Shown: positions 10,412 to 41,273 of the stretch, piece after piece | Layout of the letters: every line of letters begins with the position of its first letter | Numbering within the stretch: the first letter of the stretch is position 1 | Origin: Doris montereyensis | Lineage: Eukaryota > Mollusca > Gastropoda > Nudibranchia > Dorididae | DNA: 64,000 nucleotides | NCBI GenBank assembly: GCA_037039925.1 | Contig: JAXRKP010000837.1 | Location: forward strand, 1-64,000 | Direction of reading: 5' to 3' | Translations under genes and position numbers: made by a program | The notes under the pieces: model-generated | Databases searched by the model: none | What the model was told of the DNA's origin: nothing | What the model saw: the letters and a program-made list of their open reading frames with translations, nothing else

Positions 10412-10518
10412 TTGAAGAGAAGAATTCGGTCTTAAGTGCTGATCCCCTTCGTGCTCAGCAATACTTTTATGTAAACAGCATGGCTAAATTATCTTATGGC
10501 GGTCCAAATTAATAAAAT
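10412..10518 (+). CDS. Cassette 1
   Basis: Opens LKRRIRS, then meets a stop as read. A one-base gain near 10431 opens LSADPLRAQQYFYVNSMAKL, and another near 10497 gives a basic end before T/gtaagt. Both changes are needed for phase 1 exit. Confidence 0.55.
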
Positions 10519-10751
10519 GTAAGTAATTCATATAATGACAATGAAGTGAGAGCCACCGTTTTTGTCTCTTATTGCTTCTGTCTGATTGGTAAGAATGCTG
10601 CTTGCTGTTTTTTTCCCTCCGTCTTTTTTTTTGTTTTGAGTTTTTTATACTTCTTATGGGCATATTGTAGATTTCATGAGAAGAATTTTCTCTTTTTCTT
10701 TGTTCCTCAATATCCCCTCCCAAAAAAATTCTTATCTTTTATTTGTCCCAG

Positions 10752-10861
10752 TTGTATCTTGATTCCAATCCTGGCTTGTGACTCAGTTCGTGCTGAGACC
10801 CTGCTGTATGCCAACAGTATGAGAAAATTGTCACTGCGTCGAAGTAGGCAGAAATTGAATT
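10752..10861 (+). CDS. Cassette 2
   Basis: Opens LY and slips at a CTT step near 10758 that looks one base too long. It then reads IPILACDSVRAETLLYANSM and RKLSLRRSRQKLN up to T/gtgagt, phase 1 after correction. It is the closest relative of cassette 1. Confidence 0.6.
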
Positions 10862-10943
10862 GTGAGTTCTTGTTACACCTGCGCCAGTATTTTCTCCCCC
10901 TGACCTCTCTAACTCAAGTAGTGAACTTCCTATTTCACCATAG

Positions 10944-11041
10944 CTCTTATCAAGAACTCCCAATCCTGAGGTTCAGTAGGTATCGGGCTGAGCATGCTAT
11001 GTATATCACTACCATGCGGCAGATTCAAAGAAACGCAAGAA
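10944..11041 (+). CDS. Cassette 3
   Basis: Opens LLSRTP. One C too many at 10959-10961 breaks the frame, which resumes as ILRFSRYRAEHAMYITTM and RQIQRNAR. Two donors are possible: GAA/gtatgt at 11042 (phase 1 after correction) and TTG/gtaagt at 11053. Confidence 0.6.
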
Positions 11042-11138
11042 GTATGTATTTGGTAAGTAATGCCAGTTTTTTGTCGTTTTTTTCCTGGACGTGATATGAA
11101 GGAAGCTTGCGATTTAAAAATTGGAATAACTACTTCAG

Positions 11139-11256
11139 ATATTTCGGCGTCTTCCCCTCTTGTTGAAGGCCCAAAAGAAGACGGAGCAGATTTTGTATGA
11201 GAATTGTAGTAGAAAAGTGCGCCGCTGGCGACAGCAAACGGCATTGCTGCATCCAG
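11139..11256 (+). CDS. Cassette 4, intact
   Basis: Open from TTCAG to CAG/gtaaat, 118 nt, phase 0 to 1. It reads IFRRLPLLLKAQKKTEQIL, then YENCSRKVRRW and a neutral end. It shares the IF opening with D0. Confidence 0.8.
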
Positions 11257-11510
11257 GTAAATAAACCTCTATCTTGGCTTGGATTTTAAGTAGGATCTCC
11301 TCTGTTTCAATCTATTGTCACCCTCTTCGCTTTCTTCAGCCTCCTTATATGCCCTTTCACTTCCAAGATGTCCTTTTGTTATGGTATTGGTTCGATGATA
11401 TAGGGGATTGCACTTTTTTGTGGCTCACTTCTGACATCCATCAAACTTTGAGGGCACATTTCAGGTGAAGGCTTACTGTTCTATTTATTTCCTTCCTTCA
11501 TTTACCTCAG

Positions 11511-11622
11511 CTTTTTCTCCGAATGCCTGCCCTCCTTTACAACAGCAAAAGAGCTTTAGAGACATTCTATATAAATTCAACACGGAAAATGCAAAAAAGA
11601 CGTTTGAGAGCTCATTTTAAAG
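11511..11622 (+). CDS. Cassette 5, intact
   Basis: 112 nt, phase 0 to 1. LFLRMPALLYNSKRALETF, then YINSTRKMQKRR. The acceptor is CTCAG after a pyrimidine stretch and the donor is AAAG/gtgagt. Confidence 0.85.
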
Positions 11623-12141
11623 GTGAGTACCTTAGTTTGACTCATCTTGTATGCTTTTTGTGCAGCGCATGTTAATCTTGAAGAGGTGGCTGGCTGCATG
11701 CAATTATGTAGTCTATAGAGAGCATACTTGTGACAAAGGCTGTCATCATATTCTTTTCCACTCATATTGTCAATAGCTTTTTGTGTCTGAGACTTTCAAA
11801 ATTATGTGAACAGATGTTTTGTCCGTAGAAATTATTCAGCAGTTACTTGTGTCAGGAAACCTCATTACGTTTGCATGCAGATGTAAGTTCAGTCTCTCTT
11901 GCCGTTTATGTTCTGTCTGAAATCAGCTGTGGCTCAGTACAGATTGTCCTGATTTGCCATTTCTTCAGGATTTGTTTCTCAGGAATCTTGCTGCAGTTTT
12001 AGTTATTTAGCCCTTGTGTCCTACACTGTTAGGGTCATTTCACTCTCTGTGGCTTTGTGATCAGGGAGTGAAGCTTTAAAAGAACAAATCTGTCAAGGGT
12101 GACTTATGCTCCTAACATTTTCGTTGCATTCTTTGTGTCAG

Positions 12142-12247
12142 CTCTTCCTGCGAATGCCCACCCTTCGCTTTAACTATCGCAGAGTGATGGAGAATTTCTA
12201 TATCAACAGCATGAGAAGAATGTATAGAGATCGGGACAAATCAACGG
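12142..12247 (+). CDS. Cassette 6, intact
   Basis: 106 nt, phase 0 to 1, the clearest unit. LFLRMPTLRFNYRRVMENF, then YINSMRRMYRDRDKST. The acceptor is TGTGTCAG and the donor is CGG/gtaaag. Confidence 0.88.
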
Positions 12248-12352
12248 GTAAAGTTGTATTTTCCCCTTTTTTCTTCCTGTTTTTAAAGAAAAACAAAAAC
12301 TCCAAGAAAATGGTCTTGCCTTGTGTATAAGGTTTGTTTCTGTTTATCATAG

Positions 12353-12465
12353 TTGTTTTAGACGCCACCCACTTCTTTATTGGCAACCGAAGAGCGGTGT
12401 GAAGAAGTGTTCTACGTTAACATGAGAAAGAGAGTGTCTAGGACCCGCAATAAATTTTTGGCAAG
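12353..12465 (+). pseudogene. Cassette 7, damaged
   Basis: A TTTT run creates TAG at codon 3. One T fewer gives LFRRHPLLYWQPKSGVKK. A second shift is needed for VFYVNMRKRVSRTRNKF. No convincing GT donor follows, so true decay is more likely here than for its neighbours. Confidence 0.5.
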
Positions 12466-12797
12466 ATAATCTGTGATAAGTATCAATTCTTTCATTCCCA
12501 TAACCTTTTTATTCTCACTGAATATCTTTTTTAATGTATTAATTTGCTCAGCATTCTAGACACAGATCTCTTAGCAATTATGAAACAAATGAAACAGTTT
12601 ATGCGGAATTTCAAATGACTGGCTCTAAATTTGTGTTTAATGCGATGTTTAAAGTTTTCATACATTTATTTTAGATGTATAGCTTTTAAGAGCACAACAA
12701 GGATTTCTTTCTTTGGTTCTTCTATTCGATCTCTTTGTAATGCATTTTATATGCTTCCTTTTACTCCAATAATACCCAATGTTCCTTTTGTGTATAG

Positions 12798-12900
12798 TTA
12801 TTGGGCGCCTTCCCGCAGCTGCATTGTCTGAAAGAACGAACAGGGAAGTGTTCTATGTGAATGTAATGAAAAAATATCAAGAGCACGGATAAAGCACGTG
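12798..12900 (+). CDS. Cassette 8, frame-broken
   Basis: TTATTG then a GGG that looks one G short. After it RLPAAALSERTNREVFYVN and VMKKYQEHG. A TAA lies seven codon-lengths or fewer before the donor CACGTG/gtaagt, and may reflect a second run error. Confidence 0.5.
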
Positions 12901-13469
12901 GTAAGTGGTTGGTAAAGTGTCTTTTTGAGTTTCAGACACCATGATTTTAATGCCATTTTGTTTGTGCTAAAGACCTGGTCATTTGTGTCAAGTATTTTGT
13001 TTGGTAGTGAGCAAGGCTATTGATTCTCAGACTAGCACAAGTTTTACCCACCCTGTATTGTCTTTGTATGGCAGCAAGGGCAATCTGTTTTCTTTATTTG
13101 TTTCTTTTTGTAGTGGTATGCACAGTATCAACATTTTTGTCATGATCAATTATTGGTTCTTAATTTACTCAGCTTTCCCCATCTGTAGGGAATAAAACGA
13201 CAAAGTTTGAGTGTGAGTATCAAAAGAAACACCAACACAAGTCAGAGAAAGTCTTTGGTTAAGGGAATAATATAGTCTTAGGCTGGGTGCGTTCTTTCAT
13301 TTCAATCATATGTAGTAGTGATCCAGTATACGATTGAAAGTGGCTCATTATTTTTGTACTTCTCTTTTGCTTTAAGCTGCTACTTTGACCGTTAACTAAG
13401 TCTGTCGTCTCCTTTCCCAATTCTTCCTTGCTCTGACACATTTCTCTCTTCTAAAAAACTCGCCTAAAG

Positions 13470-13589
13470 TTGGTGAGAAGAATGCCTATTCTCTCTGAAA
13501 CGCAACAAGGGTATCAAACTTGCTGTATAATAACAGTAGGGTCAAGATTCACATGAGATATCGACGTCTAGTCCAGGCCCAGATGAAAA
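13470..13589 (+). CDS. Cassette 9
   Basis: Opens LVRRMPILSETQQG. One more G in the GGG near 13508 continues it as SNLLYNNSRVKIHMRYRR up to AAAA/gtgagt in phase 1. It is preceded by CTAAAG, a weaker acceptor than usual. Confidence 0.55.
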
Positions 13590-13740
13590 GTGAGTAATCT
13601 CTTGTGACAAGCTTCTTCTCTTTTTTTTAAATTGCCAAAACTAGCAGGATTATTTGCACCCAGCTCCAATTTCTGGGATAGATTTTGAAAACTTTGGTCA
13701 TCATTCATATTTCCCTCTTGTACACCCTTCTCTTATACAG

Positions 13741-13850
13741 TTGTTCTCTCGTCTACCAATTCTGAAACATGACAGGACAAGAACGTTGCTCTGATGTACA
13801 CAAACATCGTAATAAACTGTTCATGAGAAGCCGTAAACATCATTTCCAAG
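13741..13850 (+). CDS. Cassette 10, two frame breaks
   Basis: LFSRLPILKHDRTRT is clear after ATACAG. The middle (ALMYTN) and end (KLFMRSRKHHFQ) lie in other frames. The donor CAAG/gtggat is weak. It may be decayed. Confidence 0.45.
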
Positions 13851-14095
13851 GTGGATAATTTTTGAAATGTTGGGATTTTTTCATCTTTCTTGTTTGTATT
13901 ATGTGTATGTGTGTGTGTGTCCATTTATGATGTTTTATTGAAGGTGTATGTGTGAAAAAATTTGCTGTTGTAGAATGGGAAAACAAATTTAAAAAATGAA
14001 CAAAAATACTTTTTATCATGGCAGTTAAATCTCAAGGGCATGTTGTCCTCTTAATATTGTTACCAAAAAAAACCCTTTCTGTTGTCCCTTCTAAG

Positions 14096-14218
14096 TTGTT
14101 TGAAATGTGCCTGTTGGCTTATCAGCCTGAAAAGCAGGGTATACTATATACATGAATTCAATGTCTCGGAATCATTACTGGAAAGCCAAGAAGTCCCTTT
14201 GTAAAGCAAGCAGCAAAG
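14096..14218 (+). pseudogene. Cassette 11, degenerate start
   Basis: The opening LFEM lacks the R-x-P motif in frame, and the acceptor is a weak CTAAG. The second half is well kept: YMNSMSRNHYWKAKKS before AAAG/gtattt. Confidence 0.4.
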
Positions 14219-14470
14219 GTATTTTGTAAATGACATACATCATGATTAGTCATATATATATATGTGCTCATTGCGCTTAGATTTGAATAATCATAGTTTC
14301 TTTTACCGTGCTCTTGTCAGGTTGAAGTGATGTTGGGTTTTTTTTTAATATCTTATTCTGCCGTGTCCGTGCGTCTCAGTTTTGGCAGGGGCTAATTTTG
14401 TTTCTCCACAATGGTCATCTCTTTCTCAGCATAAAAGAGTTTCTTCACTTTTGCCTTTTAATGTTCACAG

Positions 14471-14571
14471 TTATTTACGTGCATACCCATTCTTAGCCAG
14501 ATTATGATCATATCAGGAAAAATTGTGTCATAACAGCAAATCCGTATAGGGATGAAATGTACCAAAAGGCA
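14471..14571 (+). CDS. Cassette 12
   Basis: LFTCIPILS after GTTCACAG. One base short near 14497, then DYDHIRKNCVITANPYRD and EMYQKA before gtaagt. The exit phase is 0 even after this correction. Confidence 0.45.
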
Positions 14572-15023
14572 GTAAGTAGTGTCTCTGACTGACGTTAGTG
14601 ATAACTCCAGGGGCAGTAAGTTGTGTTGATGACTTGTTTCCCATAGGCTAAAGCCTGATGTCTACTCCCTAGTAAGTAATTTATCTTGTGCTTGCTTGAA
14701 AATCCGTCTTGCTGAGGTAGGCTTAGAGGCGTTCTGATAGTTTTGTACACCAAAGTCAAATTTATTTTATCATGTGTGGGATGAACTGTCTCTCAGATTT
14801 ATTTTGAAAATATACAACTCTTAGTGTGGCATTCTTTATTATATTCTAGTATTGTTTCATCACAGTGCTTATCTTTGGTCATAAATCTTTGAGATCGTCC
14901 ACATTTCATTTTGGACATATATGTTTAGAGGTATTAAAACTTTCAATTCAGCATCTAGAATTCTCTGTTAACTTTAAAATTTTTGATATTTTTTTTACAT
15001 ATTCCTGAAAATTTACACATCAG

Positions 15024-15143
15024 CTGATACATAGAATGCCAATATTGGCATCAGCAGAGACTTGTCGTCTGTCTTCCATTTCCTGCACGTTTGTCGATCA
15101 AGAATCAATATGAGGGCTTCATCGAACAAGCAGCAGTGTGTAG
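15024..15143 (+). CDS. Cassette 13
   Basis: LIHRMPILASAETCRLSSI after CATCAG. One T short in the ATTTCC near 15079, after which the frame reads VCRSRINMRASSNKQQ to a phase-1 exit at the weak donor GTAG/gtatag. Confidence 0.5.
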
Positions 15144-15391
15144 GTATAGTGTATTGCTTTGGGGATTTTCTTGTGTTTGTTTTTGGTAGCTGGGATCTTT
15201 TTATCTGTTGCACTCATTTATAGTCTCCATGTTTGTGTGTTAGTTTTTCAGACACCGTGCGTTGTCTTCATTAGTTCTTGTTATTGGTTTTAATCATCAA
15301 GGACTTGTTTCATACGTGATTACACATGAACTTTTCTGGAGGAAAGGGTGGTGAATGTTTGTTAGCCTGGTTGAAGAGCCTGGCTTCATGT

Positions 15392-15499
15392 CTGCCAACT
15401 CTACTGCAAATTAGAGACTCCGCAGTTTGTGTCTATCTTCCTACCATTACAGAAACCTCCGTGTTAACGCATATATATTATTTCAAACCTCCATTCACT
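15392..15499 (+). pseudogene. Cassette remnant a
   Basis: LPTLLQIRDSAVCVYLPTI resembles the first half of a cassette, but no acceptor precedes it and the basic core is missing. It ends CCATTCACT/gtaaat, paralleling remnant b. Confidence 0.3.
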
Positions 15500-15527
15500 G
15501 TAAATGTTCATTTAGTCTTGTTAACAG

Positions 15528-15677
15528 CTTGCCAACTCTGCTGCAAAGTGCGGGATATTCTTGCTGTTTGGGTTTACCATGACAAACATACTGGGTTATC
15601 GCATTTAGATATTTATAGCAGGAATGGATTTCAGGGCCTTTCGGGAATTCACGTGATTTTTCGGACCTCCGTTTACT
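15528..15677 (+). pseudogene. Cassette remnant b, sister of remnant a
   Basis: After TTAACAG it begins CTTGCCAACTCTGCTGCAAA, almost the same DNA as remnant a. It then reads VRDILAVWVYHDKHTGLSH in another frame and ends CCGTTTACT/gtaagt. A local duplicate that has lost most of the pattern. Confidence 0.35.
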
Positions 15678-15793
15678 GTAAGTGGAAGTGGGTTTTTAAT
15701 GTTCCTGTAAGGTTGATATTGTATCCAAGAAGACCAATACTTACCCAAATGAATACTTTATTCAAGGAAGGATACTCGCACCACTCTTCCTAA

Positions 15794-16555
15794 TTCATGT
15801 AAATTTTTAATAACTAGCATCGATATAGTTATTATTGAAAAACAAAAACTGTTAGGGTAGTTTGAAATTTGAACCAGCAAAACTTCAGTCTTTTTGTTTG
15901 CTAGTCTGCTTGTGACTGGGCAATCCGTTTTCTTTGGTGTCTAAAGAACATGAATTAAGTATCTCCCTCATTTTTGTATAATCTCCCGGGTTTCCTAATC
16001 AGATTACCCTCTCAGATGGCTTCGAAGGTTGGCAGCTAAATCTCTTAGAAATAATGAGCTTGCTCTTTTTGTTAACCTCACCTCACATTTTTAACTTTTT
16101 ACTTAACTTCAAATTTGGCATTTCATGTGGTTATTCAGTTTTACTTGTTTTGTTACACTGTGTCCTCTATGCTGTTTCTTCACCCTAAGACTGAGTTTTG
16201 ATGATTTCATTATGTTCTTGTAAGAAGTTAAGATGTATGTCATTTCTAAATTCTTACACTCTCCGCTAATGTCCTTTGTGAGGAATTTAAGCTTTGATCT
16301 GGATTCAAAAGAAGAAAAATCTGGCTCTGTAGGACTTTGTTTGCACTATTATTTATAAACTTGAAGAAGGGTATGTTATTGTCCTTTATTTCTATTTCAT
16401 CTCAAATAGCTAGCTTGCAACCTAATTTAGATTTCATGGCGTATGTACAGCAGTCCTGCACACTCTTCTCCCTTGGCATTATCATGACTGAACCCCGTGT
16501 CTTTTATATCTGATTCCCCTTTTGGCTTACTGCTTGTGTTCTGTGCTCTTACCAG
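15794..16555 (+). other. Cassette-poor gap in the array
   Basis: About 760 bp without a recognisable unit, following the remnants. RRPILTQMNTLFKEG at about 15730 may be a last trace of one. Confidence 0.4.
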
Positions 16556-16663
16556 TTGTTTCATCGTCTTCCTTTCCTTATGAGACAAGAAGACGAGATC
16601 AATCAAGTGTTTTCTAACAACGTCAAAGTCTGGAGACACAGGGCTAGGCATCGTTTTGAATTG
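16556..16663 (+). CDS. Cassette 14, open frame, unclear donor
   Basis: LFHRLPFLMRQEDEINQVF, then SNNVKVWRHRARHRFEL, fully open after TACCAG. The nearest donor, TTG/gtggta, leaves in phase 0. No phase-1 donor is visible, so the end is provisional. Confidence 0.6.
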
Positions 16664-16822
16664 GTGGTAGATTCGTATTGCCATAGGTTCCTGTTTTTCT
16701 ACATCTTTTTGTCTGTAGCACAATGGCAGTTGGTGATTTTGTGTGTGTTTATTTTTGGTTTATTTTAAAGGTTCCCATGTAATATGCAGGGGAAGGGTTT
16801 ACTCTCTATTTTTATGTATCAG

Positions 16823-16916
16823 TTGTTCCGGAGGAATGCCTCTTTTGAAATGCTGTCAGTCTTTGGCTTCTGACTATGTACAATACAAGTCGTTGGAGGG
16901 TCATGGCTGCAGAAAG
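16823..16916 (+). CDS. Cassette 15
   Basis: LFRR, then an AAT that should be ATG (one A too many) opens MPLLKCCQSLASDYVQYKS. Strong donor AGAAAG/gtaagc. As read, a TGA stops it after 16 codons. Confidence 0.5.
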
Positions 16917-17073
16917 GTAAGCTACAGTGTCTTGGGTTGTTTTGTTTTTGGGGGGTTTCTGCAAGATTACCTGTCAAATGTCATAGTTGGGTATGTTTTG
17001 AAGAGTTGGTTTTTTTGTCAGCTCTCGAAACTGCATATAACGCTTATGAAAGAAATGAATTTGTACTTTGCAG

Positions 17074-17190
17074 CTTTTGCTCCATTTACCTATTCTTCGA
17101 GGGATATTTTTGAGACTAACCGGTATATGTACAGTAGTGCACGGTCAAAGGCCAGTCAGAGATCCCTTCCAGCAAAAGGCAAAGCTGTAG
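17074..17190 (+). CDS. Cassette 16
   Basis: LLLHLPILRG, then one G short in the GGG near 17101. It continues DIFETNRYMYSSARSKASQ and a basic end up to GTAG/gttatg, phase 1 after correction. Confidence 0.6.
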   Translation, partial: LLLHLPILRGIFLRLTGICTVVHGQRPVRDPFQQKAKL

Positions 17191-17373
17191 GTTATGCAGA
17201 GATTATTTGTTTTTTAAATTTGTATTTTCTCAAATTCTGTTAATGCAGATTATGTTGTAAAAAACTTTGTCTTTTAGTTTTGTCTTTCATCTCTCTTTTC
17301 CTTCTTTTTTTAACTGAAGGATCTTCCGATTTCTTTGCTCTGTTGCTCTTGAAGTCTTAAATTTTGATCACAG

Positions 17374-17484
17374 ATTTTCAAACGCATACCTGTGTTGCAA
17401 GGCAGTTCTTCTATGGCCTCTGAGTATTTTACCAAACCTGCATGTCTCGTAGATCGTCTCGTTTACACCTTAGCCGTCAAGGAA
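17374..17484 (+). CDS. Cassette 17
   Basis: IFKRIPVLQGSSSMASEYF. One T short in the TTTT at about 17431 would switch to YQTCMSRRSSRLHLSRQG, which leaves in phase 1 at GAA/gtaagt. The raw frame stays open but leaves in phase 0 and loses the basic core. Confidence 0.55.
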
Positions 17485-17776
17485 GTAAGTCTCTCCTATT
17501 TTGATCTTACACATCATCATATCCCAAAGTCTGGTCTTGCACACATTGATTTCTGTCCAGGACTCTTGCTTAGCATTGTTTTATGGCAGAGTAATAGCCA
17601 CAATGCTCAGACAGGGCTAGATTCTTTTGGAGATGGATTCATCTCTGTAGGAGTTTTTTAGGAGTTGGGGTGTTATACTTGTCATGTTTTCTTGTGTATT
17701 TTTGTTTGTTGCTCCCCTCCAACCATGTCTTCTCAGAGACCTTCTCACTATATTTTTTGTCTCTTACATTCCACAG

Positions 17777-17886
17777 CTTTATTCACGGTTACCAATTTTG
17801 CTAGGAAATAAAGTCAGGACACTCTCACTATTTTCACATCAGTACTTTTTGTCTCGTCGTGCCAAGCATAATATTAGGACCGAACA
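17777..17886 (+). CDS. Cassette 18
   Basis: LYSRLPILLGNKVRTLSLF, then SHQYFLSRRAKHNIRTE, open throughout after TCCACAG. It exits in phase 2 at ACA/gtgagt, one base away from the family rule. Confidence 0.65.
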
Positions 17887-18191
17887 GTGAGTCGATTCAA
17901 CATAGTTTTCTTGAAATGCATACATATACCTATATTGGCGTGTTCATGTAATTTTGGATTTTTTTCCTCTTCTTTTTCTTTTAATTCTAATACATCTACT
18001 GATTCTCTCATAGACATGGTAAAGTTGAAGTTTCAGGGGTCACTATGCAATCTGTGCTCAGCCAGTTTCCTTTCTTGCATTCACACATCCCAATTATATC
18101 TCTTTTTCACCCCTATCTAACTAGGATATGATGTTAGACACTGTTCAGTTTTCTTTTTCTTTTCCTATTGTTTTACAATGCTTTTTGGCAG

Positions 18192-18303
18192 ATGCTGTCT
18201 GTTATCCCCTGCCTCTGTCATGATGTCCAGCGTTGCTCAGAATATTTGTACCATAATTGTCGAAAGAAATTAGGCATGGGAATTTCTCGTTTAAGAGCAC
18301 TAG
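18192..18303 (+). CDS. Cassette 19, intact
   Basis: 112 nt, phase 0 to 1. MLSVIPCLCHDVQRCSEYL, then YHNCRKKLGMGISRLRAL. It has a divergent opening but the core pattern is kept. Donor CTAG/gtgagt. Confidence 0.78.
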
Positions 18304-18467
18304 GTGAGTTGGGTTTTTGTATGGTGTACCTGTGTTTCATAAAGCTTCTCCTCAGTTTCCTGTGAATCATAAGGGCTTTTGTGTTACCTTTAGTGTGGAT
18401 TAAAGCTGTGATGCCCAGTGGATTTCGACCATTAATTGTTTTTGTGTTGCATATGTGTTTCCATCAG

Positions 18468-18595
18468 TAAGGGTCTTTTTCACATTGCCACATTCATGCC
18501 GGGACCCTTTACGAGCATCTTATTATTTCCTCGAAAGATGCAGAGTGAAAATGAGTATGCGAAAATTGAAAAGGTCAAGATACACCCTTGGGGAG
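18468..18595 (+). CDS. Cassette 20, start unclear
   Basis: After CATCAG the frame that fits is RVFFTLPHSCRDPLRASYY, then FLERCRVKMSMRKLKRSR. The spacing before the P is longer than usual, and in phase 0 the exon begins with TAA. Donor GGGGAG/gtgctg is weak. Confidence 0.45.
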
Positions 18596-18707
18596 GTGCT
18601 GCATGTAAGAAGTTGTACACATTTTCACAGCCTTGTCAAAAGAGCTCTTGATTGTATTTTCCTGTTTAGTTGATGCAATTTGTGACATCTTAAATTTTGA
18701 TGTTCAG

Positions 18708-18816
18708 CTGCTGAACCGACTGCCTTTGCTAAATTATTTTGAGAGAAACAAAAGCATTATATTTAGAAGTGACTCGTCAGCGTTTAAAGCAGCGCCGTAA
18801 AAGGAGTTCATTTTAG
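18708..18816 (+). CDS. Cassette 21
   Basis: LLNRLPLLNYFERNKSIIF, then one base short near 18767 switches to VTRQRLKQRRKRSSF. The length is 1 mod 3 as it stands, so two compensating errors are implied. Strong donor TTTAG/gtaaag. Confidence 0.55.
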
Positions 18817-19218
18817 GTAAAGCGCATGTTATCTTTGGTCGGAAAATCTTGTTAGTATCATGCGTTGTAAGTATCTTTCGTATATCGTAAGTATCTGTAG
18901 GTTGCCCTGAGCTTTTTACTCACAATCATCATGTCAGGTGAATTTGCCTTTTTCTTTTTGGGCGTTGATTTTTCTCCTCTCTGAAAAAATTCATCATATT
19001 TCGTCATACTTGAAAGGTTTTATCGATAGCCTTGTCAGTATTCCAGATTGTTTCTGCAACATCTTTCGGGCGTCTTTCCAAGCTTGTTCTCACCTGAAAA
19101 TGTAATTCTACATAGCTACCTATCTGTGATTCTCATGGTCTTGAAATCCATGGGAGACTTTAAATTACTTTCTCTTTTTTTCTTTTTTTTGTGGCGTTTT
19201 CATGGATCTAATCTTCAG

Positions 19219-19318
19219 CTCTTCTCCCGATCGCCTTGTCTCGCATGGAATGCTGCCCACACTGCATTTCTTCTCTCTGATAATGCTAAGCTTGCTTGGC
19301 TTCAGATCAGGACGAGGA
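19219..19318 (+). CDS. Cassette 22, intact, short
   Basis: 100 nt, phase 0 to 1. LFSRSPCLAWNAAHTAFLL, then SDNAKLAWLQIRTR. Fewer basic residues than most. Acceptor TCTTCAG, donor AGGA/gtaagt. Confidence 0.75.
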
Positions 19319-19536
19319 GTAAGTTTGAGTTGGGGTTATTTTCTTTAGGGGGTGGGGAGGGGGGATGTTTTCTTTGCCCCAGGGACTAAACAGGTTTTAT
19401 GTGCGTGTGCAAGTTTTGTTTTGTTTATTTGTTGTTTTTTGCCCCCATACTCCAGGACATGGTGGTTTTATTCTTTACTGTCTTCTTTAGCATAGTCTAG
19501 TTAATGGTATGCCTCAAATCTTTCATCATTGTCCAG

Positions 19537-19649
19537 TTATGTATCCGTCTTCCCATCCTGCAACACGATATTAAAAAAGCCAGCTCCTTGTTCACAAAGA
19601 CTGTCACTAGAAGGATGTCTTCGAATAATGGCAGATTCTTCCATGAAAG
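19537..19649 (+). CDS. Cassette 23
   Basis: LCIRLPILQHDIKKASSLF, then TKTVTRRMS. The raw frame is open but exits in phase 2. One T fewer near 19620 gives RIMADSSMK and a phase-1 exit at AAAG/gtgagc. Confidence 0.65.
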
Positions 19650-19867
19650 GTGAGCTGGACGGTAGTACACCGGTCTTCTGTCTTGTCTCTCTTTCCTGTC
19701 TTTTACTCTGAAGTCTTCAGGTAACATGGCCATTTTCTGACCCCTCTGCAGATGTTTCACCATGTGCTTTCTCTTATTTCACCACTAAGTTATCAGTTAT
19801 GAAGGAGAGGCTGTCGTATTGAGCATGACAATCATTCAATTTCGACTTACAACAACATACTCTACAG

Positions 19868-19974
19868 TTGTTTCATCGCTTACCGTTGTTGAGATGGGAT
19901 TTGGTCCGGACCTCTTACTTATTTAGTGCCACAACCGAAACGTAATTGGGCTGTACGCATTCGGAACAGGAACA
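19868..19974 (+). CDS. Cassette 24
   Basis: LFHRLPLLRWDLVRTSYLF, then SATT. One C too many near 19935 causes TAA; without it the end is KRNWAVRIRNRN and exit at ACA/gtaagt is phase 1. Confidence 0.65.
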
Positions 19975-20568
19975 GTAAGTATTTGACATGTGGGGATCAA
20001 ACTGCATCAAAATGCCCGGTGCCTGTAGGTGAATGGGGGCAGGGCTTCCATCCCATGGATGTAATAGGAGTTTGTGTTGTTTCTTTTTCCTTTAGTATTT
20101 TAAATATTTTGGACAGTTGGAGTATCGATCTGCGCAGTTGGCTTCACTTTTGCCATTTACTCTGCCATTTGGATCTATCTCAGCTTTCTTTTTATCCTCT
20201 TTTAAATGCTTTTGATCACCGCTTTGAGCAATAATTCATTATCCTTGAAAAATGTCTGATCATTGCTTTTGGTGGCCTAGGTATATTTCAACAATCATTC
20301 AATCTTCAGTAATCTGTCTTTCCCTTATGGTACAATAGTGGTGTCTATTATTGTTCAAACTCAGTAGAAAGTTGTATGAGAGGGTAACATTTTGGACACA
20401 ATTCCAATGTGCTCAGCTGTGGTCTTATTTAAGCCACAAGTCCACCTTTTAATATAAGTATTTACACCATTTCACTGATCTTAGTTTTCTTTGTTGCTTA
20501 TGTTTTTGGGATTTGTAACAGATTGATTTTTGAATAAATGATCAGAATTGATTGTTCTGCCATCTCAG

Positions 20569-20677
20569 TTACCATCATCATCTGCCTCTTCTAAGAATGG
20601 ATTTGGAAAGCGAGTGCAGTCTCTATTTATGCTTACTGTAAGGGTTCGAAGGTCATCACAGAGGCGTTTTCAATTTG
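20569..20677 (+). CDS. Cassette 25, open, atypical start
   Basis: 109 nt, phase 0 to 1. It opens LPSSSASSKNGFGKRVQSL without the R-x-P motif, then FMLTVRVRRSSQRRFQF keeps the basic core. The opening may be a local frame distortion or a true variant. Confidence 0.6.
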
Positions 20678-21119
20678 GTGAGTGGGCTAGAATTGGCACT
20701 GCAGCTTCTTACATGCTATCGTTGACTATCCCTAACACCACCCCACAGTCATCACACTTGAATGGTCAGAAATTTTCTTTACTGCTGCTTCTTTTTTCTT
20801 TTCACTCAAGCGTACGGTACTAGTTATCAAACCTCTTGGCACCAAAATTTTAAGACTCAGCTGCTAATTTGTCTGTCAAAACATACCACTCTCTCTATCA
20901 CACTCACTTATGAAAATTTTTATCTTGATATCACACCAGCATAGTCTTGTTGCAAGTCATTTCATGCTCAGTGTTGGTGTCCTTAGTGAAAGGGAGAAGT
21001 GGCTACCCCAACAATAGCTACATTGGTGGGTTTTTCCGTATGACAAATTTTGGATTAGAGGAGGTGGGATATTCTAAAATTAAAATGAGTGCTAGAATAA
21101 TCTCTGGTTTATCCAACAG

Positions 21120-21221
21120 TTGATAATCGACTTCCAGTTATTGCGAGAGATGAATAGAGTTTCATCCATATTTGTTGCTCGAGTTCAGAAAAGGCTTTTG
21201 ATCATCGTCACAGATTGAAAG
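21120..21221 (+). CDS. Cassette 26, several frame breaks
   Basis: LI, then RLPVIARDE in a neighbouring frame, then RVSSIFVARVQKR back in the first frame, then DHRHRLK. Three small shifts would be needed. As read in frame 1 the middle is scrambled and a TGA precedes the donor. Confidence 0.45.
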
Positions 21222-21306
21222 GTATGATTACTTTTTGCTTTTCGGGAGGTGAAATGGGAAATTTTGTAAAGAGCCTGAGCCTGACATTGTCTCATCCTTT
21301 CAACAG

Positions 21307-21412
21307 TTGATTAAACGCATGCCATTAATCAGATCTACGCCGAACTGGCTGTATACTTCAGTGCTAGGTGTGCAGAGTTTCTATCAAAACAGGCAGAGAG
21401 TGATTGGCAGAG
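21307..21412 (+). CDS. Cassette 27, intact
   Basis: 106 nt, phase 0 to 1. LIKRMPLIRSTPNWLYTSV, then LGVQSFYQNRQRVIGR. Acceptor TCAACAG, donor AGAG/gtgagt. Confidence 0.8.
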
Positions 21413-21740
21413 GTGAGTTGATTGCCCAAACCTGTGACACATGTCATTACTTTCCCAGTTATTTGGATATTCATGTACATGTACTTCCTTCCTGTGGCTC
21501 TGATGCTATCATAAACATTTTAATTTGGGGAATGGTATGTTCATGGACTGCATATTGTGAAAGAAGTGAAGAATTCCTTTCAATATTTCACTTCTGTTCG
21601 CTTTCCTAAAGACCTCAGGTGTAGGAAAATAGTTTTCTTGATGGTTTAAAAAGAGACCAAACTAAAGCTAAAACAGGATAAAACCTCATCATCAAAAATC
21701 TCTACACTGTCCTGTAAGCTCTTATACATACCCCAAACAG

Positions 21741-21848
21741 CTGCTCTCTGATGCCAATGCTACGGTTAAATGTGGGGCGACTTGAGGGGACGTTCTGTGC
21801 TAGAACAGCTGAGATCCGCTACAAGAAGCTTACAACAAAGAATTAGAG
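21741..21848 (+). CDS. Cassette 28
   Basis: LL, then one base too many near 21748, then MPMLRLNVGRLEGTFCART and AEIRYKKLTTKN. A TAG falls just before the donor AG/gtgagt. First of the FCAR-core group. Confidence 0.5.
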
Positions 21849-22153
21849 GTGAGTGCTAATTTCAAAAGGTCTCTACACTCTGTCAGAAAGGAACATGTAG
21901 GGTTGCTCTGCTTCTTGGTGCAGTCTTTTTATTTGTTGGAATCCCTTTGAATGACTTTTCTTATGAAGCATATGTGACTATGTCACTACGACTTGTCAGC
22001 AGCTACTCATCACTGTGGTTCTTAGTTGTTTTCTCTATTAGTGGTCAGCAATGGTAATTTTAGCAATATTATGTACTACAAATGGATGTACATTTTGTAT
22101 TTATGATAATAAGTCCTGATAGATTTGGCTGTGGCTTTTTGACTTTCATGCAG

Positions 22154-22271
22154 CTTCTGTACCACTTTTGCCCTATTCTTCAATTCGATGTCCCTCGTCT
22201 GGAACTTATATTTTGCAATCGAGCCAAAGACATACGATTTAAACTTAGGCGCTCCAAGTTTCAAGGCCAAG
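22154..22271 (+). CDS. Cassette 29, intact
   Basis: 118 nt, phase 0 to 1. LLYHFCPILQFDVPRLELI, then FCNRAKDIRFKLRRSKF. One extra residue precedes the conserved P. Acceptor CATGCAG, donor CAAG/gtaagc. Confidence 0.85.
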
Positions 22272-22378
22272 GTAAGCCTTCACTGGTCGGTCAAAGAGTG
22301 TCAGATCTTATGTTTGCAATTCATACAGACATTCCATGAGCCAATTTTATGTAGCTTAAATATTGAATATCCTGACAG

Positions 22379-22487
22379 CTCACAAATCGCTGTCCTGTGC
22401 TTCAATTGGATATACAACGGCTTAAGATGATTTTCTGTCAAAGAACAGCTGATATCAGGTTTAAAGAAAGAAGAGCTAGAATGCGAG
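22379..22487 (+). CDS. Cassette 30, intact
   Basis: 109 nt, phase 0 to 1. LTNRCPVLQLDIQRLKMI, then FCQRTADIRFKERRARMR. It is clearly a sister of cassette 29 only about 107 bp upstream, the tightest spacing in this part of the array. Confidence 0.87.
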
Positions 22488-22670
22488 GTAAGTTGACTGA
22501 AATGCGAGTGGTTTCACTGCTTTTTCTTCCCTGTACCCTCCTGTGTCTTTCCTATCAAAAAAATGTGTAATGGTCTCTGTTTCACCATTCCCTCTTATGG
22601 TCATACTTCCAGTTTTGTCAAGGGTTGCTTGTCGTACTGAGCAAGTTAATGCTTTGTTTCTTTTCATTAG

Positions 22671-22775
22671 TTGTGTCGAAGAATGCCTATCTTACAATGG
22701 TGGACTGATAAACAAAAACCTTGTTCAGTGCTTGTGTTGCACGATGGAGCTATCAGAGGAGGAATGCAGTAAAAG
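22671..22775 (+). CDS. Cassette 31
   Basis: LCRRMPILQWWTDKQ. One A short in the AAAAA at about 22718, then TLFSACVARWSYQRRNAVK with phase-1 exit at AAAG/gtaggt. Confidence 0.68.
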
Positions 22776-22933
22776 GTAGGTCAAAGCTCAGAATAAGCTT
22801 GCTACCTTACCATGAGTCACAAAAGGGTCAGGATATGAGAGATTTAATTTTCACAATTCTTGTTGTGTGGCTGCAGATTGAATCAAATCTTAGAATCCTC
22901 TGCTGTATTTCTTTTGCCTTTCATCACCTTCAG

Positions 22934-23036
22934 CTGTTGAGGAGAGTGCCAATTAGCTTTGACATCCGTCTAGCTTCAGCTTTGTTCAGGTACAATACAA
23001 CATCTCGAAGGCATGAAGAACGTAAGAGACAAGAAG
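22934..23036 (+). CDS. Cassette 32, intact
   Basis: 103 nt, phase 0 to 1. LLRRVPISFDIRLASALF, then RYNTTSRRHEERKRQE. Acceptor CTTCAG, donor GAAG/gtaaat. Confidence 0.85.
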
Positions 23037-23170
23037 GTAAATGACTCAATTCCTTCACTGTGTTAATCAAGTCTGAAAAATCCAAAAGGTGGCTCTGTTT
23101 TTGCTAGATCTAGTTTAGATTGTCATTTTTAATACGTCCACTTTCATTGAGCTAACTTTTTTTTCTACAG

Positions 23171-23289
23171 TTACTTCGACGTGTGCCGATATTGTCCCTA
23201 TCTTGTGAAAGAACCATTCATATTTTTTGTGCTCGTGTTGCCAAATGGAGATTTCGGCTCAAAGGCTGCCTCAATGGCTCACATTGGAA
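23171..23289 (+). CDS. Cassette 33
   Basis: LLRRVPILSLSCERTIHIF, then CARVAKWRFRL. The raw frame is open but exits in phase 2. One A fewer in the AAA near 23265 gives KAASMAHI with phase-1 exit at GGAA/gtatga, the same ending as cassette 34. Confidence 0.7.
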
Positions 23290-23567
23290 GTATGATTGTC
23301 TTTGTGGTTCTACATTGTATGTACACCTTCTTTTTCTTTGTAAAAGTAGTCCGGTCTTCTCTTTTCTGAGCTCACATTCTAACTCATTTTTAAACCTATA
23401 CTATGTCCCCACCCTAGAGACTTGGATTTTAAGTTTTTTAACAGGCATTTCCTCCAGGTAAGCTCGGAAAGTCTTAAATCTGGGGGGTCATTGCCCTAAA
23501 CTTGTCACGTCTGACTTTTATAATTGTCACATTCTTTTTTAGGTTCTTCCTTTCTGATTGTTCACAG

Positions 23568-23692
23568 TTGTTTCATCGCCTGCCTTTCTTGCATTGTTAC
23601 CATCAACGTACCATCCATGTCTTCTGTGCTCGAGTGGCTTTATGGAAATTTTCGTTCCAAGTCTGGCTGTAGCACAAAAGCAGCAGTAGGAA
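23568..23692 (+). CDS. Cassette 34, recent duplicate of 33
   Basis: LFHRLPFLHCYHQRTIHVF, then CARVALWKF. One T fewer near 23650 removes a TAG and gives SKSGCSTKAAVG up to GGAA/gtatga. It shares R-T-I-H-[IV]-F-C-A-R-V-A with cassette 33. Confidence 0.68.
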
Positions 23693-23831
23693 GTATGACC
23701 AGGCTGATAACTGATGTTTTGATAGTGTACTTGATGCTTCATTCTAAGCTTTTCTTTCAAATTTCCTTTGACAAACTTTAATTGAAACAACAAACATAAA
23801 ACCCTCCACCCCTCAACAACAAAAAACACAG

Positions 23832-23939
23832 CTCTTTTTAAGGTTGCCCCTATTGACTTGTGACAGAAAGACTGTCGCAGAGATGTTCTGTGCACGTTCA
23901 TCCGAAATCCACTACCGCATGCGCAAAAAAAGGGAAGAG
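23832..23939 (+). CDS. Cassette 35
   Basis: LFLRLPLLTCDRKTVAEMF, then CARSSEIHYRMRKKREE, open throughout. Exit is phase 0 at GAG/gtaacc. A run of seven A at 23925-23931 is the likely place of a missing base. Confidence 0.7.
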
Positions 23940-24045
23940 GTAACCATGATTAATCGTATCAACTGAGCTCATCATGTTACAGGGCTTTTTATTTTATAAT
24001 TTACAAAAATATTGTCATTCGTTATTTTATTTCAATATGTCACAG

Positions 24046-24152
24046 CTTTTTGACGCGTCTCCCTCTCCTTCGATATTGCGTGCCCCTATGTTGTAGATGT
24101 GTTCAGAGCTCGAGTTAGTTGGAGAAATTCATACCAAAGACGTAGAAAGAAG
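24046..24152 (+). CDS. Cassette 36
   Basis: LF, one base too many, then TRLPLLRYCVP. A CCCC run one base too long precedes VDVFRARVSWRNSYQRRR. Donor AAG/gtgggt. It belongs with the F-x-A-R-V core group. Confidence 0.55.
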
Positions 24153-24271
24153 GTGGGTTACCCTTGTCATTCTATCTATGCTCGTCCCTTCGCCCACCGC
24201 CACACCCTTATTTCTGTCCCTTTGTTCTTTTTGTGTCAGTTATATGTTTTTGCCTCAAATGTTTGTGGACA

Positions 24272-24377
24272 GCTGGCGGGGTTTTTTGGTAGGTTATACT
24301 TCTTTCCTTTCTCTCTTTCACATATCTTGTCTTGCTAATTCCTCTTAATTCACCCTGAGGTAACTGCATATGGTGGG
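24272..24377 (+). repeat. Dispersed sense-oriented repeat copy
   Basis: Contains CTCTCTTTCACATATCTTG and ends AATTCACCCTGAGGTAACTG then CATATGGTGG. It sits in the intron between cassettes 36 and 37. Confidence 0.75.
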
Positions 24378-24620
24378 TAGGGGAAATTTCGGTGAAACGA
24401 AGTCTCAAATGTGCATCCCTCTGTGTTTGTTCCTCTTCTCTGGTGTACCTTTGTTTTGTCAGTGTTTTTTCCTTCTTTCAGCATTACTGTGCCTCTGATT
24501 GTATTTTTAGTGCTGAGCATTTAATTTAAAACGCTCGTCTCAGTCACCACAGTGCAGATCAAAACGGTTTCTTGTCTTTATTGGCTGAACTGTTGCCATG
24601 CAGTGTCATACTTCTTGCAG

Positions 24621-24731
24621 CTGCTGTCTCGCCTGCCAATTTTACGTCTTGATATCCCTCGTGTAAGTTATTATTGTGTAAAAACTGCCCATGACAGGAA
24701 AGCGAACAAGTACGCAGGACCAGACATAAAG
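24621..24731 (+). CDS. Cassette 37
   Basis: LLSRLPILRLDIPRVSYY, then CVKTAHDRKANKYAGPDIK, fully open after CTTGCAG. Exit is phase 0 at AAAG/gtaggc, one base off the rule. It matches the family consensus very closely. Confidence 0.78.
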
Positions 24732-24800
24732 GTAGGCTGTCACTAGTCTAGCTGAGGTTTTTGAAAGGCTTTTGTGTTGTTTTCCCCCTCCTGCACACAG

Positions 24801-24908
24801 CTAATACAGCGCATACCCTTACTTCAATTCAACATTACCAAGTGCAGCCACATATTTAGGGCCAGGGTAGCAGAGAGGATTCATTACTATAACATCGGAC
24901 TAAACCAG
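24801..24908 (+). CDS. Cassette 38
   Basis: LIQRIPLLQFNITKCSHIF, then RARVAERIHYYNIGLNQ, fully open. Exit phase 0 at CCAG/gtacct. Only about 70 bp separates it from cassette 37, short for an animal intron and by itself a bar to splicing the two together. Confidence 0.75.
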
Positions 24909-25163
24909 GTACCTGTATGTGTAGTATCACTGTTGCAGTTTTTGTTTTCAAAACTGAGGACGCTATTACTAAACAGTCATCTTGCTTTGTCTCTTCCCAC
25001 TAAGATGAAGGCGTTTATCGGGTCTCTGTCTGGTATAAACATTCATAAACATTTGGCTCTTTCTCGTATTTGTGCACATTCTAGCGCCAAGTTAGGGGTG
25101 TCCCAGTGTCTTTTTTGTTTTACAAATTTTGATGCTTCTTGTTTTGTTTTTGTATGATGACAG

Positions 25164-25275
25164 TTAGTTAGTCGACAACCTCTACTGAAATTCAGACTTT
25201 ATCCACCTATGTGAATGTTTGGCAAAAAATGCCAAAGATAGAAAGAATGCTCGGAAATTCCGGCGGTGGGAAGGG
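25164..25275 (+). CDS. Cassette 39, frame-broken
   Basis: LVSRQPLLKFRLYPPM, then a TGA. The tail KNAKDRKNARKFRRWEG lies in another frame, near a run of six A. Donor GGG/gtaagt is strong. Confidence 0.55.
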
Positions 25276-25386
25276 GTAAGTCAGAATGTTCTTCAATGTT
25301 TTAGATGTCTAAATGCTTCAAGAACCCAGCTCACTGTTTATACACACTTCCTTATAATGGCGACCTTTGTTACCTTCACTGGACAG

Positions 25387-25492
25387 CTTGTGTCACGCCT
25401 TCCGCTATTAAAGCATCATATTGACACTGCTGGCCATTATCTGGTTAAAACTGCTCAAGATAGAAAGAGTAGGAAAGACTTCGTGCAGAGAG
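25387..25492 (+). CDS. Cassette 40, intact
   Basis: 106 nt, phase 0 to 1. LVSRLPLLKHHIDTAGHY, then LVKTAQDRKSRKDFVQR. Sister of cassettes 37 and 39. Acceptor GGACAG, donor AGAG/gtgaga. Confidence 0.86.
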
Positions 25493-25972
25493 GTGAGATT
25501 TTGTTTTCTTTCTCCTCCAGTTTTAGGCTTATTGAAAAGTATCAAATTTTTGTTTATGTGAGAATGAGGGTTTCCTTCCTGTTTTCTCATTTCTACTTTT
25601 AAAAAAAATATATATATTGTTAAGAGTGGTGGAGAAAGGCAACGTTCCATTTACTTTGAAGTAGTGCACCTCTATTCACTCCTTTTCTTCCCTTTCTCAG
25701 ATGCACGGGTTAAATCTTGTTGAGTTTCTCTGCCTCTGCTGCTTGGCATATTTTGCTTTAGAAGGGAACTCTAGTTGGTTGTTCGTTTGTGTTTTGGGGA
25801 TCTTTGTCTTGTTTTCTTTCGGGGTGGGGTAAGGCTTTGATTTAGTGAAGATGGGTGTTTCCAGATTTTTTTGTTCTGTCTTGGACTGACATTAATCAAA
25901 GCATGTCACCATGACTTCATCTGGCTCTATTCTTGTATCTTTGCTGAGCATTACATTTACTTCATCATACAG

Positions 25973-26093
25973 CTGTTGCGCAGACATCCAATTCTTTCAA
26001 ATGACTTGGTTCGTACTAGCTTGATTTTTACGGAGCGGAGTCTTCGAAGGTTGTCTTATGAAAGGACAAAAACTAAGGATTACAATTCTCGAG
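25973..26093 (+). CDS. Cassette 41, intact
   Basis: 121 nt, phase 0 to 1, the longest fully intact unit. LLRRHPILSNDLVRTSLIF, then TERSLRRLSYERTKTKD. Acceptor ATACAG, donor CGAG/gtacgt. Confidence 0.87.
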
Positions 26094-26323
26094 GTACGTG
26101 CTTGCCGTCTTGTTAAGAGGTATCTGCACAGTTGTTCCAGAGGGGGGTTTGACCACGGTCAGCAGCAATGCTCACAACAACAAAGGTCTTAAAGAGGCAA
26201 TGTTTTTATAAATGCAATGTGAACTGAAGAAGAAAACACCATGGCAGCAGGCCTTTGTCAACGAGAGTTGTCGCTCAATTTTGTTTGATAGGTGGAGATT
26301 TTATTCAAATTCTTTCATGTCAG

Positions 26324-26435
26324 TTGTTACGCAGGATTCCACTTCTCGGGACCAGCCTGGCTAAAACTTCATACGTCTTCTCGATCAATACCATGTCTCG
26401 TTTGGCAATGCAGCGCCGCAAGAAGCAGGAGCCAG
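26324..26435 (+). CDS. Cassette 42, intact, last of the array
   Basis: 112 nt, phase 0 to 1. LLRRIPLLGTSLAKTSYVF, then SINTMSRLAMQRRKKQEP. Acceptor TGTCAG, donor CCAG/gtgtga. No clear unit follows before the constant 3' exon about 1.8 kb downstream. Confidence 0.87.
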
Positions 26436-26596: not shown

Positions 26597-26717
26597 GGTC
26601 AGTGGGTGCTGCTTGTTGGTCCTAGGCCTACTTCTTTTCTTTCACTCTTTCACTTATCTTTCATCTTGCTGTTTCATTTTAATTCACCCTGAGATCAATG
26701 CATATGGTGGACAGGGG
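26597..26717 (+). repeat. Dispersed sense-oriented repeat copy
   Basis: The most complete copy: GGGTGCTGCTTGTTGGTCCT, pyrimidine blocks with CTTTCACTTATCTTTCATCT, then AATTCACCCTGAGATCAATG and CATATGGTGG. Confidence 0.8.
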
Positions 26718-27365
26718 AACATTGCAAAGAAAGCCTCATTATTTTTTTCATGGCCAAATTTATTATGACGCTGGATGGATGTAATTGTGTCATATAGTCA
26801 CATATTGAAGTATGTCCTAGTTCTAATTTGAATCGTGCTTCAATGGCAAGTATAATATTATTATGTTCATATCCAATAATCAATTGTTTACTTAAGTAAA
26901 GTTTTTTGCATGAATTAATAAGGAAGTATTGAAATGTATTTGTGCCAATACGTTAAACAATTATTTTTATAAGAGTAGCTACATTTCTGTTTTGGTTTTA
27001 TACACAAGACATCAAAGAGCCAGTGATCCCAGCATGTAACAGTTTCTCTCTGAAATTAACTTTTCTATTGGGTATTTACTTTGCACACATCATAGTGTGA
27101 AGAGCAATATAGTGTCTTGTTACAATGGTTATAAAAGGCACAAGCCATCATGGTTCAATTGCTGTTTTCCATTGTAAACTGGAACAAATAGGATATGCAA
27201 CAACAATGATTCAGAAATAAGAACTGATATGAAAGCTCTTAATGTGTTTCATCGTGAAAACCATTTTTTCCTTCTTTTTAAAAAAAAGTTAAAGATGTAT
27301 TATGTTTACAATGTAATGCTCATTGTGCACATTTAACTAGATTTCAGAAATATGTGCAATAAATG
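26718..27365 (+). other. Intron sequence
   Basis: Nothing recognised between the last cassette region and the TTA repeat. Confidence 0.5.
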
Positions 27366-27712: not shown

Positions 27713-27801
27713 TCTGTCTTCCTTTCCTTCACTTTTTCATAAATTGTATCTTGCCATTTTCCTCTTTCTTTTTAAGATCACCGCATATATGGTGGACAGG
27801 G
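27713..27801 (+). repeat. Dispersed sense-oriented repeat, degenerate copy
   Basis: Pyrimidine-rich body with CTTCACTTTTTCATAA, ending AAGATCACCGCATATATGGT then GGACAG. Confidence 0.65.
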
Positions 27802-28222: not shown

Positions 28223-28369
28223 GTCAGTTTAGATCGCCAGGGCAAGGCATGAGGGGCAAGGGTTACAGTCACCAGTCTTTCGCAGGGGGACCTCAAGGAT
28301 ACCCATTTTCACCAGGCTACCGAGGAGGATATCCGTCACCCATGCATGGGGGAAGAAGGCTATCAGAAG
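28223..28369 (+). CDS. Gene 1 first constant 3' exon (Gly/Tyr/Pro-rich)
   Basis: 147 nt between TCCAACAG and GAAG/gttggt, phase 1 to 1. It is read with the single G left over from the cassette, giving GQFRSPGQGMRGKGYSHQ, then a stretch rich in Gly, Tyr, Pro and Arg (GYPFSPGYRGGYPSP, MHGGRRLSE). Such composition is typical of flexible RNA-binding or condensate-forming tails; that role is inference. If the array is skipped (phase 0 entry) the exon stops at TGA after nine codons. If two cassettes are joined (phase 2) it stops at TAG within three codons. Confidence 0.8.
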
Positions 28370-29141: not shown

Positions 29142-29462
29142 GGAGTGAAAGCTATCCTCTCGGCGACGAAAACTATGGCTACCAACAAATGGCTTCTGAT
29201 GACAGCAGGATACGCAACACTCGTCAGGAGACATGGGCCAACAGCAACCAACAGGCTTTAGTGGTAGTTTAGGGAAGGGGCAACACTGGGTGAATCACAG
29301 GGCTTACTCCCATTCTCATGACAAATCTCCCAACGAGTATCAAACAGGGGATCAAGTAAAAGTCCGCCAGATATTAAATACGAAGTAACGCCATTGCCTT
29401 TCATAAAGCCTGATGAGTTTGAGTTGATAGAAATTGATCCAGACGAAGAGGAAGACATTTGA
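29142..29462 (+). CDS. Gene 1 terminal coding exon, acidic C-terminus, two frame breaks
   Basis: After TCATTTCAG the phase-1 frame reads SESYPLGDENYGYQQMASDD and as given ends at TAG 29270-29272. Two neighbouring frames continue in protein-like style. GQQQPTGFSGSLGKGQHW and NHRAYSHSHDKSPNEYQ follow if one G is missing at the GG of 29208-29209. SSKSPPDIKYEVTPLPF and IKPDEFELIEIDPDEEEDI follow if one G is missing in the GGGG near 29346, ending at TGA 29460-29462. An acidic peptide kept open to a clean stop is unlikely by chance, so the longer product is preferred. No family recognised. Confidence 0.65.
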
Positions 29463-41150: not shown

Positions 41151-41273
41151 CTGTCCTCCATATGCGGTGATCTCAGGGTGAATTAAAAGGAAACAGGAGG
41201 ATGAAAGGTAAGAAGAGGAAGAGTGAAAGGATAGAAGTAGGGTCTACCAGCAACGCCTCCCAACCACCCACAC
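41151..41273 (-). repeat. Dispersed repeat copy, reverse complement
   Basis: Begins TCCATATGCGGTGATCTCAG then GGTGAATTAA and ends in GCCTCCCAACCACCC. On the minus strand it is in the sense direction of gene 2. Confidence 0.8.

Follow-up and report, generated by a model that had tools for sequence, protein, structure and literature searches.

We analysed a stretch of 64,000 nucleotides from the nudibranch Doris montereyensis (the window), which is the start of contig C3321 (GenBank JAXRKP010000837.1). It contains, on the plus strand at 10,412-26,435, a tandem array of 42 cassette exons, and our analysis confirmed this array as real. Each cassette runs from phase 0 to phase 1, mostly between CAG acceptors and GTRAGT-like donors, and the 32 that are open on a second contig covering the locus (C570) are 100-124 nt long. 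We consider it likely that the array belongs to a gastropod gene in which exactly one of the 42 cassettes is spliced between shared exons. The locus would then give some forty forms of a probably nuclear protein, distinguished from one another by about 37 residues only.

The extent of the array was defined with sequence profiles. A profile built from 17 seed cassettes, which score in it by construction, was run over the whole 64 kb on both strands. Matches of at least 10 bits occurred on the plus strand between 10,429 and 26,324 only, and the top score outside the array on either strand was 6.8 bits. When the profile was made from 40 cassettes, the window gave 49 matches of at least 6 bits within the array and four outside it (best outside 7.2); the corresponding numbers for C570 were 42 and 10 (best outside 11.9). 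The count of 42 blocks is made up of 39 from the first compilation and three from gap filling (window 18,708, 19,219 and 25,164). The initial annotation of this DNA, made from the sequence alone, had described about 42 related blocks on one strand, and both the count and the confinement of the profile matches bear this out. The spacing it gave, roughly 380 bp, needs correction, as the median on C570 is 350 bp, and the block that it named D0 was not identified. A genome search with the last cassette (26324-26435, +), which is open in both the window and C570, matched only these two copies at E≤0.001.

The cassettes share acceptor, donor, phase and the framework L..R.P.L. Behind the AG they open with codons for LFxRLPIL-like residues, and the last base before the GTRAGT-like donor belongs to a split codon, the overall donor pattern being AAG/GTRAGT; CAG precedes 33 of 40 cassettes in a tally in which AG was required and donors were chosen by best score. 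The initial proposal that every block has its own acceptor and donor agrees with these patterns. Mutually exclusive exon clusters are characterized by homology among the exons, by similar exon length and, according to a section of PMC3228551, by conserved splice sites and reading frame. The cassettes are homologous and of similar length, and their splice sites and frame are conserved in 32 of 39 blocks on C570 and in 37 of 42 when either copy is counted.

The shared exons on both sides of the array could be delineated as well. The N-terminal exon (M at C570:38,774, with one frame break on C570) and a short upstream exon (near C570:40,369-40,491) lie beyond the window. Shared exon B (..DLTRAQQEELEMYYRKGTDQHLTFL) is found at 2751-2823 (+, window end approximate), where it is scrambled, and in a clean form at C570:54437-54510; its last 14 residues open 13 Biomphalaria models. 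Exon C (3152-3232, +, 81 nt, phase 0-0, RNMREAHAMYPFTGKRDKELFDKALAE) is identical in the same 13 models and in P0014, and a genome search with it matched the window and C570 only at E≤0.001. It is the upstream constant exon of the initial annotation; a shared exon does lie there, but it is accompanied by exon B and by the two exons beyond the window. On the other side of the array, exon D (28223-28369, +, phase 1 to 1, QFRSPGQG...RRLSE) directly follows the cassette in relatives. The last coding exon, E (29142-29462, +), encodes an acidic tail ending in ..DEFELIEIDPDEEEDI before the stop at 29,462. The C-terminus is closely similar in relatives, and exon E has at least one indel in each copy, at different places.

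Because exon C finishes in phase 0 whereas exon D begins in phase 1, one cassette is needed between them. In silico, the frame stayed open to the end of exon D with each of 33 cassettes included singly, a result that is partly built in because these cassettes were picked for open frames. Every one of 528 pairs included in genomic order met a stop, which in 504 cases fell inside the second cassette. With the array left out altogether, a stop came after nine codons.

The second copy is informative about the state of the cassettes. C570:51,685-94,999 is collinear with the window (97.0% identity over 43,646 columns) and most likely represents the other haplotype. Among the 39 blocks of the first compilation, 32 are open from acceptor to phase-1 donor on C570, 12 in the window and 35 in at least one copy, while a length of 1 mod 3 would be expected in about 13 of 39 from length alone. 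The blocks had originally been presented as all translating to variants of one pattern, but in the window the frame is open in those 12 only. Block 18,708 is open on C570 and block 19,219 in the window, which brings the blocks open in one copy or both to 37 of 42. Between 10 and 26 kb of the window, the alignment with C570 contains 418 gap columns and 174 mismatches (sums over kb bins). As gaps outnumber mismatches, assembly noise is the likely cause of most broken cassette frames in the window. In addition, a cluster of mismatches and indels at window 2751-2950, inside an otherwise near-identical stretch, covers the conserved exon B, the peptide of which agrees between C570 and Biomphalaria despite the scrambled window patch. 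This cluster looks like a local assembly fault and, taken together with the excess of gaps, indicates that the window is probably a noisy copy.

To identify relatives, we used a composite protein of 499 residues as a query. It detected 268 proteins at E≤0.01, and the results below refer to the best 120 of these 268. The top seven (P0015-P0021) are full-length relatives with 50-54% identity and 98-100% query coverage: Physella LOC131934887 isoform X11, two Bradybaena proteins, a Lymnaea protein, Aplysia LOC101860137 isoform X8, Biomphalaria LOC106053932 isoform X11 and a contig product, P0021. All seven were opened, and each has exactly one cassette between the same shared sequences. P0021 is a single frame of 545 aa on a contig of 2,047 bp, whereas the same coding path here spans about 42.6 kb (C570:38,774-81,409); such a compact form very probably comes from spliced RNA. 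Clusters at 90% identity comprise 49 sequences for Physella, 43 for Biomphalaria, 33 for Aplysia and 27 and 9 for Bradybaena; one representative per cluster was opened, and the members are read as isoforms. Thus, the original idea of one cassette out of many between shared exons is supported by conserved splice sites and phase, by the frame test and by seven full-length relatives with one cassette each.

The shared part of the window gene is most similar to that of Aplysia (73% identity). In the tree of this part, the window sequence falls outside a supported group (97/93) of Physella, Lymnaea, Biomphalaria, Bradybaena, Elysia and Plakobranchus sequences. The Physella (LOC131934887), Biomphalaria (LOC106053932) and Aplysia (LOC101860137) loci are the same gene by full-length match and, as far as seen, are database predictions only. 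The gene had been called unrecognised. It is in fact listed in databases as uncharacterised loci with many predicted isoforms, but the description holds for the literature searched, which yielded no paper recognised as describing the gene and none naming any of the three loci.

Cassette sequences vary strongly around a shared framework. The 40 compiled cassettes, four of them partial, have a mean pairwise identity of 31% and a maximum of 52%. R4 and P6 are invariant in all 24 of the 40 that were aligned. All 40 cassettes are basic, with a net charge of +5 to +9 (mean +7.05). For seven of 23 foreign cassettes, the best partner in the window array leads the next by 14 points or more. The highest cross-species value, 84%, was obtained for Biomphalaria P0020 and cassette 11,511 (11511-11622, +; open in the window and C570). 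The other clear pairs are P0019 (Bradybaena) with 10,752 (57%), P0015 (Physella) with 15,024 (53%), P0013 (Biomphalaria) with 15,024 (50%), P0003 (Biomphalaria) with 10,944 (47%), P0016 (Bradybaena) with 24,046 (46%) and the divergent P0034 with 26,324 (44%). The pair of 12,798 and P0007 was dropped as a candidate orthologue pair, its lead over the second being only 4 points, and one-to-one orthology for all cassettes was rejected, as it is clear for seven of 23 only. With seven clear partners and 16 cassettes lacking one, some variants look like old separate units, while others appear to turn over.

What kind of protein the gene encodes was addressed by domain and structure searches. No Pfam family scored above its cut-off, and the composite protein had no Pfam match at E≤10; three Pfam matches to P0007 were all far below their cut-offs. 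Sequence and fold searches of the PDB gave no credible match. These results support the earlier statement that the module is not an immunoglobulin half-domain and could not be assigned to a known family. Relatives of the helical domain were also sought starting from the divergent P0034, which recovered itself alone among 40 candidates. An AlphaFold2 model of the shared part and cassette of P0007 consists of helices only, the longest of them in the cassette (mean predicted local distance difference test score, pLDDT, 73.7; predicted template modelling score 0.34). In the model of the full Physella protein (mean pLDDT 51.9) the region of shared part and cassette is modelled best (block means 85-95 for residues 351-400). 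Its N-terminus forms a helix and three strands at pLDDT of about 53-78, and most of the remainder is below 50. Inspected by eye (no predictor was run), the N-terminal sequence MDFDSSSKF offers no obvious sign of a signal peptide. The acidic and KEE-bearing stretches, modelled at low confidence, and the zinc-finger kin described below suggest that the protein is a nuclear regulator. Because the cassettes are strongly basic and the paralogs carry zinc fingers, nucleic-acid binding by the cassettes is plausible.

The cassette gene itself has no zinc finger, but its N-terminal domain recurs in neighbouring genes that do. A paralogous N-terminal exon is located at C3321:80,485-80,264 (-). Downstream of it, on the minus strand of the window, lie four C2H2 blocks that resemble one another and contain 4-5 fingers each (39066-39455, 46799-47141, 49922-50243 and 52638-52977). 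They probably represent alternative finger exons in a sister gene that lies tail-to-tail with the cassette gene. A third paralogous N-terminal exon lies outside the window at C3321:106106-106324 (+) and is followed by zinc fingers at 110884-112629 (+). Among the listed relatives of the composite protein, zinc-finger proteins with the same N-terminus and several isoforms occur in Biomphalaria, Physella, Aplysia and Pomacea. Within one species, the Aplysia finger protein P0132 is 42% identical to the Aplysia cassette protein over 284 columns, and isoform X37 of Physella LOC131934882 (P0092), the sister isoforms of which are named as zinc-finger proteins, is 43% identical to the Physella cassette protein over 262. 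Given the N-terminal domain that is common to these neighbours, the cassette gene and its zinc-finger kin look like a molluscan lola-like family.

The window also contains several repeats. A 49-bp unit is present eight times at 5520-5909, in the intron ahead of the array; C570 has extra bases in that kb, and the copy number may differ between the two. Endonuclease-like retroelement frames were noted by eye on the minus strand at 1-1390, with a second copy, 80% identical, on C570 at 34670-36049. A short dispersed repeat resembling short interspersed elements (..TTCACCCTGAGATCACTGCATATGGTGGACAG..) was likewise seen by eye, on both strands, at 2440-2610, 24320-24390, 26630-26720, 27730-27800, 41151-41241 and 43594-43696. 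The window gave no matches to Rfam at gathering scores and none to tRNA.

A number of observations weigh against the choice of one cassette per message in a nuclear protein. For Doris montereyensis the splicing and function of the cassettes are predicted, as the RNA-like evidence comes from other species only, and the RefSeq isoforms are themselves predictions. P0022 (Biomphalaria isoform X43) and P0025 (on a 1,305-bp contig), as read, skip the array and shift the frame, although this is also what the anatomy of the gene would predict. Both copies lack an open frame for five blocks (10,412, 14,096, 18,473, 24,046 and 25,164), and 16 of the 23 foreign cassettes have no clear one-to-one partner. 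No Dscam-type docking site stood out among exact words in the two flanking introns (G-U pairs, mismatches and introns of other species were not included): the top complementary 9- and 10-mers were T runs, which fell inside the range of 20 shuffles or on its border. The structure models are modest and without a fold match, and nucleic-acid binding is argued from charge and kinship only. Finally, 13 older Biomphalaria models from UniRef (P0001-P0013) and the contig-derived P0023 run on for a few to about 55 residues past the cassette and then end. It might be argued from these that the cassettes are alternative last exons, each reading through its donor to a stop and poly(A) site in the next intron and yielding short C-terminal variants. 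We regard this as unlikely, because the cassette donors are conserved and all in one phase, seven full-length relatives join the cassette to exon D and E sequences, and exon D can be read in frame only if a single cassette precedes it. The run-on models may be partial, may reflect unspliced RNA or may represent a second, terminal use, in which case terminal exons may coexist as a minor route.

The closed frames bear on another explanation, namely that the array consists mostly of decaying duplicates, with few cassettes in use and many pseudo-exons. In its favour, the window copy lacks an open frame in 27 of 39 cassettes, and five of the 42 blocks are closed in both copies. Nevertheless, the C570 copy keeps 32 of 39 open, on which ground an array of pseudogenes was rejected; the copies differ mainly by gaps, including those in the scrambled patch over exon B; and the relatives form clusters of a similar number of sequences. 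Extensive decay therefore seems quite improbable. The number and layout of the cassettes, which resemble the Dscam1 exon clusters, and their strong variability could instead be taken to indicate a surface or immune recognition repertoire; the initial annotation had named recognition as one possible use. That idea of recognition diversity found no support: Pfam reveals no immunoglobulin domain, the N-terminus has no obvious signal peptide by eye, the cassettes are basic and the paralogs carry zinc fingers, all of which makes such a repertoire very hard to credit.

For the frame-locked choice of one cassette in a probably nuclear protein, the following mechanism can be proposed. One cassette would be chosen per message, and its single inclusion would keep the frame into exon D. 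Messages with none or two would be truncated and probably cleared by nonsense-mediated decay, which would lock the choice to one. The cassette would complete a helical domain that may begin with helices encoded by shared exons B and C, and the long basic helix of the cassette may swap the specificity of binding to DNA, RNA or a partner. As a common assembly module, the shared N-terminal domain may play the part that BTB has in lola.

Arthropod Dscam is the best-known case of mutually exclusive exons in clusters of tens. A passage of PMC8042237 gives 48 variants for exon 6 of Drosophila Dscam1 and describes exon choice directed by RNA pairing. As far as that passage goes, the exon 4, 6 and 9 clusters of arthropod Dscam1 are like the array here in having tens of homologous cassettes flanked by shared exons, with one used per message in Dscam1 and, by prediction, here. 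The array gene differs in not being of the immunoglobulin type, in having one cluster found, in showing no docking or selector pairing among exact words and in coding for a probably nuclear protein. Drosophila lola, for which a part of PMC4978900 reports 20 proteins that share a BTB domain but differ at the C-terminus, offers the likeness of a shared N-terminal domain with many alternative modules, and the neighbouring zinc-finger paralogs would fit it more closely. In contrast to lola, the N-terminal domain here is not BTB by Pfam, and the variable module is internal, is not a zinc finger and is followed by shared exons. The gene mod(mdg4) is of similar design to lola. Muscle myosin heavy chain, a known motor protein, has few variants per cluster. 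Its exon clusters, described in a section of PMC3912159 as mutually exclusive homologous exons in metazoans, show the arrangement predicted here.

The finding would place an array of a size comparable to Dscam in a phylum other than the arthropods and, it appears, in a regulator that acts inside the cell. Since at least some variants persist as separate units between distant gastropods, the sequences suggest that cassette variants have separate jobs and are not random diversity. In addition, the frame lock provides an easy way to examine how strict the choice of one exon out of 42 is. A more far-reaching reading, which we put forward as tentative, is that heterobranch snails have evolved a diversity system of their own within a nuclear regulator. 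One of 42 recognition helices would be chosen under the frame lock and placed on a new helical domain, and sister genes next to it would exchange zinc fingers on the new N-terminal domain that they have in common with it. From one locus, a cell, possibly a neuron, might then hold a selectable DNA- or RNA-binding code. Aplysia and Lymnaea have large identified neurons and, as the gene is present in both, the relation of isoform choice to cell identity would be directly testable there.

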